Source: an uncultured Bacteroidota bacterium
GTDB taxonomy: Bacteria; Bacteroidota; Bacteroidia; B-17B0; Aurantibacillaceae
DNA length: 64,000 nt
Direction of reading: 5' to 3'
Assembly: GCA_937873155.1 (NCBI GenBank)
Contig: CALMVZ010000013.1
Location: 62,001-126,000, forward strand
In this document: piece by piece, positions 41,289-62,719 of the stretch
How the letters are laid out: each line of letters opens with the position of its first letter
How positions within the stretch are numbered: the first letter of the stretch is position 1
The notes under the pieces: model-generated
What the model was told of the DNA's origin: nothing
The model's database searches: none
What the model saw: only the letters and a program-made list of their open reading frames with translations
Translations under genes and position numbers: made by a program

Positions 41289-41304
41289 TACGCCATTCTG
41301 CGTA
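41289..41304. promoter_or_regulatory. Dyad TACG-N8-CGTA upstream of the response regulator
   Basis: TACGCCATTCTGCGTA is a 16-bp site with 4-bp inverted ends. It ends exactly 23 nt before the -7 box TAAGTTTG at 41328. The same arrangement recurs at 43928-43943. This is a good candidate for the binding site of the NarL-type regulator encoded just downstream. Confidence 0.6.
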
Positions 41305-41327
41305 TTTATAGCCTCACTTTTAATCAT

Positions 41328-41335
41328 TAAGTTTG
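41328..41335 (+). promoter_or_regulatory. -7 box of the response regulator gene
   Basis: TAAGTTTG is an exact TAnnTTTG element 32 bp before the ATG at 41368. No clear -33 box is present, consistent with activator dependence. Confidence 0.65.
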
Positions 41336-41367
41336 TGTTGAAATAAGTAGTTTATTTCGGCAGGCCC

Positions 41368-42015
41368 ATGATCAAAGTAGCAGTAGTTGATGATATAAAA
41401 ACAGTAAGGGAAACCATTGTAAAGAAATTGCAATTATCGAAAGACCTTTCTGTAATAAAAGAATTCGCTAACGGGAAAGAGATTTTGCATGCAATGATGC
41501 AGGGTCTTGACGCAGATGTTATCGTAATGGATATTGAAATGCCTGAAATGAACGGCATCGAAGCCACTGAAAAGATACTTTCGAAGTACCCGGATACAAA
41601 AATTTTAATGTGTACTGTTTTTGATGATGAGACCAACTTGTTCAAAGCTATTTGTGCAGGAGCAAAAGGTTACCTGTTAAAAGACGAAAAACCTGAAAAG
41701 ATCCACCGTGCTGTTTTTGAAACTATGGAAGGCGGAAGCGCGATGAGTGCGGGCATGGCCTTAAAATCATTGAACTTAATAAAGAGCGCTACCTTAAAAG
41801 TAAAACAAGAGATCCCGGTTGAGAACCAACTTAGTAAACGCGAAGTTGAAATGCTTGAACACATTGCTTCCGGTATGAGTTACGAGCAAGTGGCAAATGT
41901 TACCGGCATCAGTTACGGTACGGTTAGAAAACATCTTGAAAATATCTATAAAAAATTAAATGTTCATAGTAAATTAGAGGCTGTAAATAAAGCCAGGAAA
42001 GATGGTTTGCTTTAG
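41368..42015 (+). CDS. NarL/LuxR-family response regulator
   Basis: A DNA-binding response regulator (215 aa). The receiver domain (about 1-120) has phospho-acceptor Asp55 in VIVMDIEMPEMNG, the acidic pair near DD (VVDDIKTV), and the conserved Lys in GYLLKDEKPE. The C-terminal LuxR-type helix-turn-helix (about 153-213) reads LSKREVEMLEHIASGMSYEQ, then VANVTGISYGTVRKHLENIY. It overlaps the following TPR histidine kinase gene by 14 bp, so the two form one unit. The dyad site 41289-41304 upstream suggests autoregulation. Confidence 0.95.
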   Translation: MIKVAVVDDIKTVRETIVKKLQLSKDLSVIKEFANGKEILHAMMQGLDADVIVMDIEMPEMNGIEATEKILSKYPDTKILMCTVFDDETNLFKAICAGAKGYLLKDEKPEKIHRAVFETMEGGSAMSAGMALKSLNLIKSATLKVKQEIPVENQLSKREVEMLEHIASGMSYEQVANVTGISYGTVRKHLENIYKKLNVHSKLEAVNKARKDGLL

Positions 42016-43927
42016 ACATGTCAGGCTACTAAAATTTTTATCCGGAATATTCTTATTCTTTAGTTTATCCTGTTTTCCGCAGGACCTGAAACACGTTATC
42101 GATTCATTAGAAAAAAAACTGCCATCACTTTCAGGCGTTGCAAAAGTAAAAGCGCTCGACGATCTCGGCTATTATCACTCCACCAGTAATGTAGATCTCG
42201 CTATTAAATACGGTAACAGGGCTTATGAGTTAGCAAAAACATTAGGTGATTCGCTTCTGATCGCGACAACCATGAACGATGTTGCATTAAGTTATTATTA
42301 TAAAGGTGGATTCGATAGTTGTATCATTCTTGCTGAAAAGGCGTATATGATACGCTTAGCTAAAAAACTATGGCGCGATGCCGGAGCAAGTTTAAGTAAA
42401 ATGGGTTTAGGTTATTATGAAAAAGGAAAATATGACCTTAGCCTGGAAAAAAATTTACTGGCCGTTGAATTACTTAAAAAAGGGGGTTCTGATTCAGAAG
42501 CTCTAAAATTGATGAGCAACATAGGAAGTATTTACGAGCGTAACAATCAATTAGAAGAAGCCAAAAAAATGCACATCGCCGCTGCAGAAGGGGCGCTGAG
42601 GGTAAAAGATTACGAAAGTTATGTAACAGCGAAATGCAATTACGCAATAATTCTATCGAAGGCCGATACTAAAGCTGCAATTGCTATTTATAATGAACTG
42701 ATCCCTTTATCTAAAAAATATTGCAGGGTAGAATTTATATCCCAGATCTATCAATCGCTTGGTGTAGCTGAGCGGCGTTTGGGAAATACTCAAAAAGGTC
42801 TCGAGTATTATTTAATGGCTAAAGAAATATACGACAGGATCGGATCCTTAAGCGGTATGTCGATCATCAATACGAATATTGGTTTGGTCTATACCGACCT
42901 TAAAAAGTTTAAAGAGGCGGAGGAATATTTGCAATTGGGTTTAAAGCAGTCACAGGAGATCCAAAGTTTATTGTGGCAGAAAAAAGCTTATGTAGGATTA
43001 TATACTTTAGAACATCACAAAGAGAATTTTAAACAAGCGAATTACTACCTGGAAATGTACCAGGCGATAAATGATAGTATGTATAATATCGAAACACAGG
43101 ATAAATTAAGCAGGCTGCAAACTGAATTTAATTTGAAAGAGAAAGAGAATACTATCTTAGCGCAGCAAAATACCATTTCTCAAAACGAATTAGCTTTGAG
43201 CAAGCGGAATACTCTTTTAGTTGTAATTGTTTCAGCATTTGCTGTTCTTTTATTTGTAGTGATTGTGATCATTCAGCGGAATAAGCTGAACCGTAAAAAG
43301 GAGGAGATCATTTTCCAGGATAAGATCCAAAAGGAAAGATCCAGAATTTCAAAAGATTTGCATGATAATATGGGTGCCGAATTAACTATTATAAGTTCGG
43401 CGATAGATATAAAAGCCCATGGCATTGAAAAGGAAAAGGACAGGAATGATCTTGAAATTATTTCCGACCAGGTCAGAAAAGCATCTGCATTAATGCGTGA
43501 TACCATTTGGACCATCAGCGATGAAAAGATCTCGATAGTTCAATTTGGAATTAAAATAAAGGAATTTGCCGAACGGGCTTTCTCGCAGAAGAATGTTACT
43601 GTTCATTTTAACAATACAAGTAACGAATTAAGTTTACGTCCGGAAAGCACTTTAAATTTGTTCAGGATAGTTCAGGAGGTGATCAATAACGCTTCAAAAC
43701 ATTCCGGCGCCAGGAATTTTTATATCTATAATTGCGTGAATGGTTTGGAAATAATTCTGAAAGATGACGGAAAAGGGTTCGATCCTGAAAAAGCAGAAAG
43801 AGGTTACGGATTGAATAACATTAGTAACAGGGCTAAGGATATCAATGCTAAAGTAGATTTCCATATCCAAAACGGATCAACAGCGGTCCATATCAAGCTC
43901 GATAAAAGCTCTCTATGGGAGATCTGA
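42002..43927 (+). CDS. TPR-sensing histidine kinase (HisKA_3 type)
   Basis: Membrane histidine kinase (641 aa) that should phosphorylate the adjacent regulator. Signal peptide or N-terminal anchor (LLKFLSGIFLFFSLSC), periplasmic TPR repeats (about 45-370, such as ALSYYYKGGFDSCIILAEKA and GLVYTDLKKFKEAEEYLQLG), a coiled coil, one membrane span (about 402-424), the HisKA_3 phospho-acceptor box ERSRISKDLHDNMGAELTII with His454, and a HATPase_c domain with N-box EVINNASKHSGA, G1 DDGKGFD and G2 GYGLNNISNRA. The input signal is unknown; TPRs suggest peptide or protein sensing. It overlaps the regulator gene by 14 bp. Confidence 0.95.
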   Translation: MVCFRHVRLLKFLSGIFLFFSLSCFPQDLKHVIDSLEKKLPSLSGVAKVKALDDLGYYHSTSNVDLAIKYGNRAYELAKTLGDSLLIATTMNDVALSYYYKGGFDSCIILAEKAYMIRLAKKLWRDAGASLSKMGLGYYEKGKYDLSLEKNLLAVELLKKGGSDSEALKLMSNIGSIYERNNQLEEAKKMHIAAAEGALRVKDYESYVTAKCNYAIILSKADTKAAIAIYNELIPLSKKYCRVEFISQIYQSLGVAERRLGNTQKGLEYYLMAKEIYDRIGSLSGMSIINTNIGLVYTDLKKFKEAEEYLQLGLKQSQEIQSLLWQKKAYVGLYTLEHHKENFKQANYYLEMYQAINDSMYNIETQDKLSRLQTEFNLKEKENTILAQQNTISQNELALSKRNTLLVVIVSAFAVLLFVVIVIIQRNKLNRKKEEIIFQDKIQKERSRISKDLHDNMGAELTIISSAIDIKAHGIEKEKDRNDLEIISDQVRKASALMRDTIWTISDEKISIVQFGIKIKEFAERAFSQKNVTVHFNNTSNELSLRPESTLNLFRIVQEVINNASKHSGARNFYIYNCVNGLEIILKDDGKGFDPEKAERGYGLNNISNRAKDINAKVDFHIQNGSTAVHIKLDKSSLWEI

Positions 43928-43943
43928 TACGTAACATTGCGTA
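43928..43943. promoter_or_regulatory. Second TACG-N8-CGTA dyad
   Basis: TACGTAACATTGCGTA begins right after the kinase stop codon and ends exactly 23 nt before the -7 box TAATTTTG at 43967. Size, ends and distance equal the site at 41289-41304, so the downstream T9SS gene is the probable regulon partner. Confidence 0.6.
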
Positions 43944-43966
43944 TTTCAGAAAAAACACTTTTCTTT

Positions 43967-43974
43967 TAATTTTG
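43967..43974 (+). promoter_or_regulatory. -7 box of the SBBP-repeat T9SS gene
   Basis: TAATTTTG is an exact TAnnTTTG element 24 bp before the ATG at 43999. Confidence 0.65.
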
Positions 43975-43998: not shown

Positions 43999-45693
43999 AT
44001 GAAACTACTTTACTCTCTTATGATCGCATGTTTATTAAGTATTAATTCATTTTCACAGGCACCGGGCTGGCAATGGGCTGTTGGTGCGGGCGGGGCGGGA
44101 AGTGATGAATCAGGAAGCGCTATTACTACAGATGGCAGCGGAAATATTTATTCTATTGGCTCTTTTGGCTGTAACACACTGGTGATAGGTACTCAATCAG
44201 TTGTACGCGCAGGTGGCGGCAACTCATATGTTGTAAAGCAGGATGCTGCAGGAAATGTTCAATGGTTAAAAAGTTATGCATTCTCGCCTCCAACTTTTTT
44301 CGGGATCAACGCCGGAAAAAGTATTTTCGCTGATGCTGCAGGAAATACTTATATAACCGGATATTATATCACAAGCATGGTAATTGGAACTAATACCTTA
44401 ATGTCAACCGATTCTTCGGGCTCAAATGTAGGAGATGTATTTGTAGCAAAACTCGATCCATCCGGTAATGTAATATGGGCAAAAAGTGTAGGCGGCGCCT
44501 ACGGAGATAATGTAAACAGTATTACTGCAGATGCGAACGGAAATGTTTATATCACCGGAACATACAAAAGCCGTTACATGAGGTTTGGCACAGGGATCAC
44601 TTTGTTTAATCCGAATAACAGTTCTTCTACTTTTTTCAATAATACTGATATTTATTTTGCAAAGTTCGATGCGAACGGAAATCCGCAATGGGCAAGAAAT
44701 ACAGCACACGCAGGAGGCGGTTTTAATGAAGGAAAAAGTATTTGTATAGATGCCGCCGGAAATGTTTTGATAGCGGGAACTTTTTATTCGCCATCTGTTA
44801 CGTTTAGTTCTGTTACTTTAGCGGGTGGAGCAGCAGTGAATTTATTCGTTACAAAATATGACAATGCAGGAAATGTTATTTGGGCTAAGACTGCTGTTCC
44901 TGCCGGATCAGGAAGTATCAATCACACGGCAACAGGCGTCACAACCGACGCAAGTAATAATGTATATGTAACGGGAGCAAACGGCGCTTCAACATTAACT
45001 ATCGGAAGTGTGGTTTTAAATAATACCAAAGGTGCTTATGTAGCTCAATTTGATCCTGCCGGAAATTGCCAGTGGGCAAATAGTATAACAGGTAATGCAT
45101 ACGGAACAGGAATCACTAATAAAGCAGGAGATATTTTTGTCACCGGATATTTTGACGGTATGAGTTGTGCATTTGGAACTGCAACTGTAGCAAATACGAA
45201 TACCGGAGGAAGCAATGAAGATATTTTTGTGGCAAAGTATACTTCTTCCGGAACCTTTTCATGGGCTACAGGAGCCGGAGGAAATTTTCGTGATATCCCG
45301 AATGGCATTAGTGTTGACGCAAGCGGTAATGCAAATATCACCGGATATACAACCAATACGTCGCTTTCATTCGGAACTCTATCATTGACCTGCACCGGAA
45401 GTCCCAACGATATCTTTATTGCAAAAATGGGAAATATGAGTGGTATTAAGGAGTTAGGCCAAAATTCACAAGTAACTGTTTCTCCTAATCCCGGACAAGG
45501 AATTTTTTCATTAGGATCCGAAACTGAAATTGTAAGAATTGATATTGTAGATGTGTTTGGTAAAGTGATCTATAGTTCAAATGATCTTTCTTCAATACTG
45601 ATTGATATTTCTGATAAACCAAAAGGAATTTATTTTATCCGCGCCGAAGACAAGAACAGCAAGATCTATTCAGGGAAACTCATTCTCGAATAA
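43999..45693 (+). CDS. T9SS-secreted SBBP-repeat (beta-propeller) protein
   Basis: Signal peptide (MKLLYSLMIACLLSINSFSQ), then about seven SBBP-like blades of about 55 residues with the pattern A-G-N-x-Y-I-T-G-x-[FY]: ITTDGSGNIYSIGSF, FADAAGNTYITGYY, ITADANGNVYITGTY, CIDAAGNVLIAGTF, VTTDASNNVYVTGA and ISVDASGNANITGYT. Each blade is followed by D-I-F-V-A-K/W-A motifs. A type A T9SS domain closes the protein (VSPNPGQGIFSLGS, IDIVDVFGKVIYSS, KGIYFIRAEDKN, YSGKLILE). The gene lies downstream of the response regulator/kinase pair and shares their regulatory dyad. Ligand unknown; propellers of this type often bind carbohydrate or protein. Confidence 0.92.
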   Translation: MKLLYSLMIACLLSINSFSQAPGWQWAVGAGGAGSDESGSAITTDGSGNIYSIGSFGCNTLVIGTQSVVRAGGGNSYVVKQDAAGNVQWLKSYAFSPPTFFGINAGKSIFADAAGNTYITGYYITSMVIGTNTLMSTDSSGSNVGDVFVAKLDPSGNVIWAKSVGGAYGDNVNSITADANGNVYITGTYKSRYMRFGTGITLFNPNNSSSTFFNNTDIYFAKFDANGNPQWARNTAHAGGGFNEGKSICIDAAGNVLIAGTFYSPSVTFSSVTLAGGAAVNLFVTKYDNAGNVIWAKTAVPAGSGSINHTATGVTTDASNNVYVTGANGASTLTIGSVVLNNTKGAYVAQFDPAGNCQWANSITGNAYGTGITNKAGDIFVTGYFDGMSCAFGTATVANTNTGGSNEDIFVAKYTSSGTFSWATGAGGNFRDIPNGISVDASGNANITGYTTNTSLSFGTLSLTCTGSPNDIFIAKMGNMSGIKELGQNSQVTVSPNPGQGIFSLGSETEIVRIDIVDVFGKVIYSSNDLSSILIDISDKPKGIYFIRAEDKNSKIYSGKLILE

Positions 45694-45828: not shown

Positions 45829-47739
45829 GTGGATAAGAACTCATTAATAGGTTTAGGAATAATTGCAGCGATACTTGGTATCTGGTTATTTTTCAGCGGG
45901 CCAAGCAAAGAACAACAAGCGATTGCTAAACGAAAACAGGATTCAGTTGCCTTAGTACAAAAGAAATTAGCTGATGAAGAGGCTAAAAAGATTGTAGCGA
46001 ATACAAATAAAGTAGAAGATACTTTAAAAGCTGCAGTTGTCATGAGCGATTCAGTAAAAGCTGCAATTGTAAATGATGCTTACCGTGATTTCTCTATCGC
46101 TGCAAAAGGAACCGAAGAGATCACTACGATAGAGAATGATGTCCTGAAAGCCTACATCACCAACAAAGGCGCGCAGGTAATAAAAGTAGAGTTGAAAAAA
46201 TATTCACGCTCCGGACAAACCGCCCCGTTAATTCTATTTGATAAAGATTCTACAAACTTCTCTCTTAAATTAGATGCTTACGAGCGCTCACGTATTTTAT
46301 CCACAGATAGTTTTTATTTCAAAGCGTCAGAAAAAGCTGTTGTAGTTCCTTCTTCCGGAAATAAGTCTATCACTTTTAAATTAGAAACGAGTAAGCCGGG
46401 TTCATATATCGAATTTGTTTATAGTTTAAAAGATAAAGATTACATGTTAGGTTGTGATGTGCGTTTTGTAGGAATGGACAAGATCATTTCTTCAAATGTA
46501 GATCAGATGACCCTTAACTGGCGCATGAATTTACCATCGCAGGAAAAATACATTGAGAAAGAACAGGAAGCCGCGACAGCTTATTATAAATTTACAATAG
46601 ACAAACCGGATTATATCAACCCACGCACACCGGAAGAAGAAAAACCTCTGAATGATGCGCCGATAAAATGGGTATCCTTCAAACAACAATTCTTTAATTC
46701 AACTTTAATTGCACAAACCGAATTTTTAAAAGACGGAAGTTTTGTAAAAATGGCAGGGCGTCCTAATTCAACTACAATTGTAAAGGCTATCAATACTGAT
46801 CTTGGGATCCCTTATAACCACTTACCAAACGAAAAATTCGGCATGAAGTTCTACTTCGGCCCGAACGATTACAAAACCTTAAAAGGATATGGTGATGACC
46901 TGGAGCAGATTATTCCAACAGGATGGAGCATTTTCTCTTACATTAATAAATGGATGGTTATTCCATTGTTCGATCTTCTTGGAAATATGAATATGGGGTT
47001 AGTGATCCTGATCCTTACTTTGGTTGTGAAAATTTTGTTGTTACCAATTGCATACAAAACATATATGTCGGGAGCGCGCATGCGTGTTCTAAAACCCGAA
47101 ACAGATGCGCTTGCTGCTAAATATAAAGACGGCGACCCAATGAAAAAACAACAGGAAACCATGGCTTTATACCGCAAAGCCGGCGTTAATCCTTTATCCG
47201 GTTGCATTCCGTTGTTATTACAGTTCCCGATCCTCATCGCTTTATTCGCATTTATTCCCGCTGCGATAGAATTACGCCAGAAAGGATTTTTATGGGCCGA
47301 TGACTTATCAACTTACGATAGTATTTGGACGTTTGGAAAAGTTTCGATCATTAATAGCATTTACGGTGATCACGTGAGTTTATTCGCAATGTTAATGTTC
47401 GTTTCAACTATTATTTATACATGGATGAACAGTTCAATGCTTCAGCCACAACAGGGCGCGCAAATGCCCGGAATGAAATTCATGATGTATTTTATGCCGG
47501 TGATCTTCTTAGCGGTAATGAACAGTTACGCCGCAGGGTTAAGCTGGTATTATTTCCTGGCGAACATGATCACGTTCTTGCAGACATATGCGTTCAAATG
47601 GATCATCGATGATAAGAAGATCCGTGCGAAGATCGATGAGAACATGAAAAAGCCTGTGAAAGTTTCTAATTTCCAAAAGAAACTGGAGCAAATGACCAAA
47701 GAGCGTCAGCAACAGTTGAGTACAGGGAAGAAGAAATAG
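45829..47739 (+). CDS. yidC: Membrane protein insertase YidC
   Basis: Inserts inner-membrane proteins alone or with SecYEG (636 aa, normal for Gram-negatives). N-terminal span (SLIGLGIIAAILGIWLFFSG), large periplasmic beta domain (about 60-370), and a conserved C-terminal 60KD_IMP domain with LVVKILLLPIAYKTYMSGARMR, the LYRKAGVNPLSGCIPLLLQF block, SMLQPQQGAQMPGMKFMMYF and the motif GLSWYYFLANM. The tail is basic and Lys/Gln-rich, suited to ribosome contact. Start is GTG with an exact -7 box upstream. It converges on the AsmA-like gene with 3 bp between the stops. Confidence 0.97.
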   Translation: MDKNSLIGLGIIAAILGIWLFFSGPSKEQQAIAKRKQDSVALVQKKLADEEAKKIVANTNKVEDTLKAAVVMSDSVKAAIVNDAYRDFSIAAKGTEEITTIENDVLKAYITNKGAQVIKVELKKYSRSGQTAPLILFDKDSTNFSLKLDAYERSRILSTDSFYFKASEKAVVVPSSGNKSITFKLETSKPGSYIEFVYSLKDKDYMLGCDVRFVGMDKIISSNVDQMTLNWRMNLPSQEKYIEKEQEAATAYYKFTIDKPDYINPRTPEEEKPLNDAPIKWVSFKQQFFNSTLIAQTEFLKDGSFVKMAGRPNSTTIVKAINTDLGIPYNHLPNEKFGMKFYFGPNDYKTLKGYGDDLEQIIPTGWSIFSYINKWMVIPLFDLLGNMNMGLVILILTLVVKILLLPIAYKTYMSGARMRVLKPETDALAAKYKDGDPMKKQQETMALYRKAGVNPLSGCIPLLLQFPILIALFAFIPAAIELRQKGFLWADDLSTYDSIWTFGKVSIINSIYGDHVSLFAMLMFVSTIIYTWMNSSMLQPQQGAQMPGMKFMMYFMPVIFLAVMNSYAAGLSWYYFLANMITFLQTYAFKWIIDDKKIRAKIDENMKKPVKVSNFQKKLEQMTKERQQQLSTGKKK

Positions 47740-61857: not shown

Positions 61858-62719
61858 TTACATCCTGCTTCACGAAAAACATTTTAATTTCAAAAAATTT
61901 GTGCAGCGCGCATTGAAAGAAGATGTGCGTGATGGTGATCATACTGCTTTAGCAACTATTCCTTCAGATCATAGAGGAAAAATGCAGTTATTGGTGAAGG
62001 AAGATGGTATTATTGCCGGAGTGGAAGCTGCCGTTCAAACCTTCAGGATCATTGATAAAACACTTTCTGTGAAAGTGCTGATCAAAGATGGCCGCAAGGT
62101 TAAGAAAGGCGATATCGTTTTTATTGTGGAAGGAAATACTCAAACATTATTGACCACCGAACGCTTAGTGTTGAATATTATGCAGCGCATGAGCGGGATC
62201 GCAACCAAAACAAAATACCTGCAAACACTTTGCAAAGGCACCGAAACAAAAGTGATCGATACACGTAAAACAACTCCCGGTTTCCGGTTTTTCGAGAAGT
62301 GGGCTGTTGTTATTGGCGGAGGAGCAAATCACCGTTACGGTTTGTTTGATATGATCCTCATCAAGGATAACCATATTGATTTTTCAGGCGGAATTGTGCA
62401 GGCTATTAATGCTGCTAACGCTTATTTAAAAAAGAATAAACTGAATTTACCAATAGAAGTTGAAACACGTACACTGAATGATGTAAAGAAGGTTTTAAAG
62501 CGTAAAGGTGTTCAACGCATCATGCTCGATAATTACACACCGGCTCAAACCAAAGAGGCGGTTAAATTGATAAAAGGCGGTTTTGAAGTAGAATCCTCAG
62601 GCGGCATCACCGAAAAGAATATTGCCGATTATGCAAAATGTGGTGTCGATTTTATCTCGGTTGGCAGTCTTACCCACCATGTAAAAAGTTTGGATTTAAG
62701 TTTGAAAGCGCTTAAATAA
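61850..62719 (+). CDS. nadC: Nicotinate-nucleotide pyrophosphorylase (carboxylating)
   Basis: Quinolinate phosphoribosyltransferase, the last step of quinolinate to nicotinate mononucleotide in de novo NAD synthesis. The QPRTase N- and C-domains are present: RALKEDVRDGDHTALATIPS, VKEDGIIAGVEAAVQTF, TERLVLNIMQRMSGIATKTK, IDTRKTTPGFRFFEKWAVVI, MILIKDNHIDF, IEVETRTLNDVKKVL and ESSGGITEKNIADYAKCGVD. An ATG at 61844 (six bases earlier, MIMSNYILL) is equally possible. The start lies inside the DUF4783 gene. Confidence 0.96.
   Translation: MSNYILLHEKHFNFKKFVQRALKEDVRDGDHTALATIPSDHRGKMQLLVKEDGIIAGVEAAVQTFRIIDKTLSVKVLIKDGRKVKKGDIVFIVEGNTQTLLTTERLVLNIMQRMSGIATKTKYLQTLCKGTETKVIDTRKTTPGFRFFEKWAVVIGGGANHRYGLFDMILIKDNHIDFSGGIVQAINAANAYLKKNKLNLPIEVETRTLNDVKKVLKRKGVQRIMLDNYTPAQTKEAVKLIKGGFEVESSGGITEKNIADYAKCGVDFISVGSLTHHVKSLDLSLKALK

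Follow-up and report, generated by a model that had tools for sequence, protein, structure and literature searches.

A NarL-type response regulator of an uncultured Aurantibacillaceae bacterium and its predicted operators at a near-fixed distance from TAnnTTTG promoters

The heptamer recognized by Escherichia coli NarL is TACYYMT, and in Porphyromonas gingivalis the sensor FimS has tetratricopeptide repeats (TPRs) and FimR is a LuxR/NarL-type regulator. Here we analyzed a stretch of 64,000 nucleotides (the window; positions 62,001 to 126,000 of contig CALMVZ010000013.1, assembly GCA_937873155.1) from an uncultured Bacteroidota bacterium of the family Aurantibacillaceae, in which a NarL-type response regulator (RR) and a TPR histidine kinase are encoded between two similar 16-bp inverted repeats (dyads), the second standing before a gene for a protein sorted by the type IX secretion system (T9SS). 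According to passages of PMC7419079, a single 7-2-7 site, with two inverted 7-base halves 2 bp apart, just upstream of the -35 element of yeaR-yoaG suffices for activation by E. coli NarL. FimS/FimR is a two-component pair from the same phylum as our bacterium, and its regulator binds directly to the promoter region of the surface-structure gene mfa1 (PMC1974823, a paper from which the terms 'binding site', 'consensus' and 'autoregul' are absent). Two-component control is also tied to the T9SS in PorXY/SigP, whose target is the expression of secretion components through an extracytoplasmic function sigma factor (PMC4800418).

The circuit that we propose for the window is made up of the following features.

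41289..41304, + strand: dyad 1, TACGCCA-TT-CTGCGTA, predicted operator before the RR-kinase operon
41328..41335, + strand: -7 box TAAGTTTG, 23 nt 3' of dyad 1, fitting TAnnTTTG
41368..42015, + strand: NarL-type RR of 215 amino acids (aa), Response_reg plus GerE
42002..43927, + strand: histidine kinase of 641 aa, TPR part plus HisKA_3, its start overlapping the RR end
43928..43943, + strand: dyad 2, TACGTAA-CA-TTGCGTA, predicted operator before the SBBP gene
43967..43974, + strand: -7 box TAATTTTG, 23 nt 3' of dyad 2, fitting TAnnTTTG
43999..45693, + strand: SBBP beta-propeller-repeat protein of 564 aa with a T9SS C-terminal sorting domain

An earlier note on this DNA had described both dyads as TACG-N8-CGTA, each ending 23 nt before an exact TAnnTTTG box, and its coordinates proved exact when re-checked; the form common to both is TACG-N6-TGCGTA-TTT. 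Dyad 1 is intergenic, with a 175-aa open reading frame (ORF) without a Pfam match on one side and the RR gene on the other; the first base of dyad 2 is the one that follows the stop codon of the kinase gene, and neither promoter has a clear -33 box. In Flavobacterium psychrophilum the TAnnTTTG consensus box is located at -12 to -5 (passages of PMC9723704); with the window boxes placed in the same way, the dyads span about -51 to -36, centered at -43.5, and the predicted transcription starts fall about 28 nt before the RR start codon and about 20 nt before that of the SBBP gene. Profile scans assigned the RR a receiver (Response_reg, 87.8 bits, cut-off 30.2) and a GerE/LuxR helix-turn-helix domain (GerE, 58.6 bits, cut-off 23.5). 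The kinase passed the HisKA_3 cut-off (32.9 against 24 bits), and its HATPase_c match stayed under the cut-off (23.5 against 26.4). The SBBP protein has a Por_Secre_tail (41.2 bits, cut-off 27) plus an SBBP match; a putative signal peptide was judged by eye from the translation.

The circuit shares with E. coli NarL at yeaR-yoaG and ogt a NarL-type RR and a 16-bp inverted repeat with 7-base halves 2 bp apart, and the center of the window dyads, at about -43.5, is close to that of the NarL II site of ogt, at -44.5 (passages of PMC7419079). It differs in its half-site TACG, in the Bacteroidota sigma-A box TAnnTTTG and in its secreted and T9SS-sorted targets. With G at base 4, both window dyads fall outside the TACYYMT heptamer. 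The kinase reaches 35 bits against the FimS model (NF053520, cut-off 600) and is therefore not FimS, while the RR matches the PorX model only in its receiver part (37 bits, cut-off 300). In contrast to PorXY/SigP, the window circuit would control cargo and surface proteins at TAnnTTTG promoters rather than secretion components.

Judging from these sequences, we estimate a probability of about 0.83 that the dyads are operators of the RR encoded between them, through which it would activate its own operon and genes for surface proteins. They are very probably RR-binding sites because the relatives that have retained the RR have also retained sites of this type, with an almost unchanged distance to the promoter and the same kinds of genes downstream. 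In the proposed mechanism, the TPR kinase would sense a signal and the RR would become phosphorylated; an RR dimer would then bind the 16-bp 7-2-7 repeat, close to TACGTAG-N2-CTGCGTA and centered at about -43.5, beside a degenerate -33 element, and the bound RR would activate sigma-A RNA polymerase at the TAnnTTTG promoter. We propose class II activation by the phosphorylated dimer because the 7-2-7 geometry next to the -35 position is like that of E. coli NarL. The predicted targets are the regulator's own operon, small lipoproteins, and secreted and outer-membrane proteins, among which T9SS-exported beta-propellers stand out. The binding protein, activation rather than repression, phosphorylation and the signal are all parts that we infer.

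The DNA itself shows the sites, their near-fixed spacing, their conservation, the kinds of gene that follow them and the fact that they co-occur with the regulator. Among 87 genomes of the family, TACG-N6-TGCGTA-N18..28-TAnnTTTG gave 24 matches in 12 genomes and the control 2, so the combination of motif and spacing, which the earlier note would have abandoned had it been as common as in shuffled sequence, withstood the genome scan. RR orthologues (58-100% identity; next match 47%) were found in 11 of the 87 genomes, including our own, and these 11 are also the genomes with kinase orthologues at E<=1e-100. Exact sites occur in 9 of the 11 genomes with the RR and in 3 of the 76 without it (Fisher p=2e-8), and by following the presence of the regulator in this way they lend support to the suggestion that it is the encoded regulator that would bind them. 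Twenty-one of the 24 matches lie in the nine RR-bearing genomes, with one each in G006, G019 and G055, and in those 21 the spacing is 23 nt in 19 cases and 24 nt in two. When the dyad TACG-N6-TGCGTATT was searched with the box ignored, it gave 24 matches among the 11 RR-bearing genomes (none in G026) and 29 among the other 76; TAnnTTTG followed 22-24 nt later in 19 of the 24 versus 2 of the 29.

Orthologous loci gave the same picture. A related site precedes the RR or its operon in all 11 RR-bearing genomes (RR identity 58-90%), with variants in G026 and G059, so the expected conservation in relatives was borne out; dyad 1 is retained with identical spacing in G003, and the recognition helix TVRKHxENIY is common to all 11 orthologues. 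The 21 exact sites fit TACGTAG-N2-CTGCGTA, two inverted 7-base halves 2 bp apart. Bases 1-4 and 11-16, including the G at base 4, were imposed by the search pattern, and the free positions show T at base 5 in 14/21, A at base 6 in 19/21, G at base 7 in 10/21 and C at base 10 in 16/21. Three contigs met again as L022-L024 have the same lengths as G041:C128, G023:C13 and G012:C8, were taken to be identical to them and were counted once; genes at the loci were called with a simple ORF script, and where Pfam gave no match, lipoproteins, signal peptides and outer-membrane proteins were assigned by eye. A fixed-spacing search allowing two mismatches returned 56 matches in 26 of the 87 genomes (control, 11), and we use it as a lead only because many of the additional matches are chance or other dyads (TACC, TACT). 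An identical sequence, TACGTAATACTGCGTATT, was seen in four genomes without the RR (G001:C52, G032:C19, G069:C408 and G071:C42).

As for the three exact matches in genomes without the RR, that in G055 lies within coding sequence. In G019 (L088, G019:C172:11244) the neighborhood is the same and other genes replace the RR-kinase pair, and the site remains with a spacing of 22; this looks like a natural loss of the pair, the leftover site being a possible regulon fossil. The third match is one of several observations that count against the proposed operators: G006 (82% complete), in which neither RR nor kinase was detected, has a site before the lipoprotein orthologue at a spacing of 24. G059 has divergent sites of the form TACGAA..TTCGTA: TACGAATAAATTCGTA stands upstream of the RR, 22 nt before TAATTTTA, and a similar site, 22 nt before TAGTTTTG, stands in front of a gene for 334 aa; the kinase of this genome is encoded on another contig than the RR. 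No box was seen at the right distance for two further dyads in RR-bearing genomes (G050:C2:167607 and G059:C41:4103), and the dyad on G000:C36 has none. Nor is the SBBP half of the circuit kept in G003, the nearest relative with the RR, since both the SBBP gene and the site after the kinase are absent there. The plain dyad TACG-N8-CGTA is not enriched across our bacterium's own genome (33 places versus 60 for the reversed control pattern) and was rejected as a genome-wide signal. Co-occurrence, moreover, cannot distinguish the RR from anything co-inherited with it.

The genes downstream of the sites are of recurrent kinds. Nine of the 21 exact sites in RR-bearing genomes precede the RR gene itself or an operon whose last genes are those for the RR and the kinase. 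The first genes of this operon in G012, G023, G031 and G041 code for a protein of roughly 300 aa that fits no known family (the G012 copy was scanned) and for an OmpA/PD40 protein; the G012 OmpA/PD40 protein (L080:8847-10352) resembles the T9SS component PorE, at 176.7 bits below the cut-off of 600 (NF052230). In G050 the operon begins with a 314-aa protein and also contains an OmpA/PD40 gene, and in G017 a T9SS propeller gene comes first. The other 12 exact sites stand before six proteins T9SS-sorted by Pfam (G000, G012, G018 twice, G023, G041), two lipoproteins (G000, G003) and four Pfam-less proteins with signal-like starts (G003, G018, G041, G050), the last two groups being assigned by eye. 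Two additional T9SS genes follow looser sites, one in G026 and one in G031. In G026 the variant site TACGTAATTCTTCGTA lies at 23 nt, and the RR-kinase operon begins with an SBBP T9SS gene whose product is 39% identical to the window SBBP protein. In G031 the layout of the window recurs: the kinase gene is followed by another dyad, with TACCTTTA 23 nt downstream, and then by a gene for a T9SS propeller that is 49% identical to the G012 propeller. Profile scans confirmed the G016 and G040 kinases and RRs, the G023 T9SS gene and the OmpA/PD40 proteins. The proposed link to T9SS cargo is supported by the SBBP homologue of G026 and by T9SS propellers after sites elsewhere, with G003 as a limit.

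In the window, TACG-N8-CGTA alone was found 3 times against 0.30 expected, a count reached in 2 of 100 shuffles; the third copy (46279-46294) lies within the yidC coding sequence and is probably chance. Across our bacterium's own genome, the dyad with TAnnTTTG 15-30 nt downstream occurs 4 times (control, 1), and the full combination at a spacing of 23 occurs 3 times against 0.06 expected (4.85 Mb; window base composition). Two of these three are the window sites, and one is on C34 before a gene for a 74-aa lipoprotein; the fourth match, with spacing 22, precedes another NarL-type RR gene. The compact sensing circuit that had been suggested is supported, and with the lipoprotein site it is larger than two promoters and appears as a multi-gene regulon. 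Four related TACGT(C/G)TTTA..CGTA sites were also observed in this genome (G000:C13:238131, C24:255902, C27:106491 and C27:108284; L168-L170). They were rejected as support for the spacing rule, a box lying near the distance (22 nt) only at C27:108284, upstream of a NarL-type RR gene.

The 23-nt spacing extends beyond the TACG set. When TAC-N10-GTATT was scanned in the family with TAnnTTTG at 16-30 nt, 76 of the 150 matches listed had a spacing of 23 and each other spacing had 2-11; these include repeated orthologous sites, and after similar rows were removed 43 of 109 among the matches listed remained at 23. In this reduced set, bases 4 and 13 were complementary in 27/43 at 23 versus 28/66 elsewhere, a borderline difference (p=0.05) among the matches listed. 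A control with a scrambled left arm (CAT) was flat, with 14 of the 150 matches listed at 23 and 5-17 elsewhere. In a scan of the class, 38 of the 108 matches listed from outside the family (42 family rows being excluded) were at 23 and 1-13 at other spacings, and 31 of 99 among those listed after removal of similar rows; bases 4 and 13 were complementary in 31/38 at 23 versus 25/70 at other spacings, again among the matches listed.

Dyads with other bases lie close to some other NarL-type RR genes. In G016 and G040, TACCCG..CAGGTA stands 23 nt before the box of a second type of operon of TPR kinase and NarL-type RR (L153:3075-6172, L156:2861-5952); sister sites of this dyad were observed before a five-gene operon (L154, L155). 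TACCTCTTTTTAGGTA precedes an RR gene in G019 and G022; the start that the ORF script gave the G019 RR (L166) lies upstream of the dyad, and that of its counterpart in G022 (L167) downstream of it. The intergenic region upstream of an RR gene in G063 contains two copies of TACTC..GAGTA, one on each strand. Among 19 RR paralogue loci (L121-L139; flanks of at most 1.5 kb, some cut by contig ends), 18 had no symmetric 23-nt dyad beside the RR, the exception being L136 in G063; because the flanks were short and the scan missed 7 of the 11 orthologues, whose sites are more distant, this result neither supports nor excludes autoregulation of the paralogues. Additionally, G026 contains five TACTC-N6-GAGTA sites at 23 nt (L148-L151), most of them before genes with signal-like starts, and they are a separate set in one genome. 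In G001 and G002, which lack the RR, the lipoprotein orthologue has TACCCAC-N2-GCGGGTA dyads 23 nt before TATTTTTG (L143, L144), an apparent exchange of regulator with the spacing kept. Inverted repeats like TTTAGAATnATTCTAAA were noticed between a TACC dyad and the -7 box at G018:C54, G040:C68, G232:C189 and G257:C2; we take them to resemble Fur boxes, which suggests combined control. An assignment of the TACC dyads to CdhR was dropped; passages of the CdhR paper have CdhR regulating hmuYR, and the terms 'motif', 'binding site' and 'TACC' are absent from the paper.

The same evidence bears on other explanations for the window dyads. It is unlikely that the RR is a repressor acting by negative autoregulation, with the dyad barring RNA polymerase from the -33 region. 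The dyad does adjoin that region, where steric repression is possible, but both window promoters lack a clear -33 box, E. coli NarL activates at comparable positions (passages of PMC7419079), and the near-fixed distance to the -7 box suggests contact with the polymerase. Slightly less likely still, the dyads could be occupied by a different NarL-type regulator encoded in this genome, the adjacent RR-kinase pair being only one of its targets. TACC and TACT dyads that have the same spacing and stand in front of or next to certain other NarL-type RR genes would fit such a regulator, as would the TACCCAC-TA-GCGGGTA and TACCCAC-CG-GCGGGTA dyads of the lipoprotein orthologue in G001 and G002; however, the exact sites co-occur with the window type of RR (9/11 versus 3/76 genomes), a related site precedes this RR or its operon in every genome that has it, and the closest other RR of our bacterium's own genome is only 38% identical to it.

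We regard it as very improbable that the dyad, instead of being a regulator site, belongs to an alternative core promoter or to an RNA hairpin. A fixed distance to TAnnTTTG could indeed mark a core element, yet the inner bases vary between the sets of sites, bases 4 and 13 tend to be complementary (55/76 at spacing 23 among the matches listed), and exact TACG sites are mostly limited to genomes with one RR. With the box at -12 to -5 (passages of PMC9723704), the dyad lies upstream of the predicted start and would therefore be untranscribed from this promoter, which speaks against a hairpin. A chance likeness of the two sites has next to no probability: the genome count of the plain dyad, which is under its control, would agree with it, but the full combination is found 3 times against 0.06 expected and is conserved in other genomes.

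The regulon of this RR would be one of a known kind. In the open-licence PMC literature (titles and abstract starts) we found no account of the dyad, of a NarL layout with a fixed 23-nt distance in Bacteroidota, of a binding motif for a Bacteroidota NarL-type regulator, or of a shared fixed spacing with exchangeable dyads. We lean, by a small margin over even odds, toward the broader idea that many NarL-type regulators of Bacteroidia use one fixed layout, in which 23 nt separate the end of TAC-N10-GTA from TAnnTTTG and bases 4-6 of the dyad serve as the address of the regulator. If so, the TACG set would be one such regulon, of T9SS-secreted propellers and lipoproteins, and targets would change regulator through a change of dyad with the spacing kept, as the lipoprotein gene of G001 and G002 suggests.

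For this circuit a regulator, a putative operator, a promoter spacing and a list of targets open to testing are now available, and the expression of T9SS cargo would be linked to a specific sensor. If the 23-nt layout is general, the operators of many NarL-type regulators of the phylum would be predictable by pattern search, and the regulons of many uncharacterized sensor pairs could be read straight from sequence.

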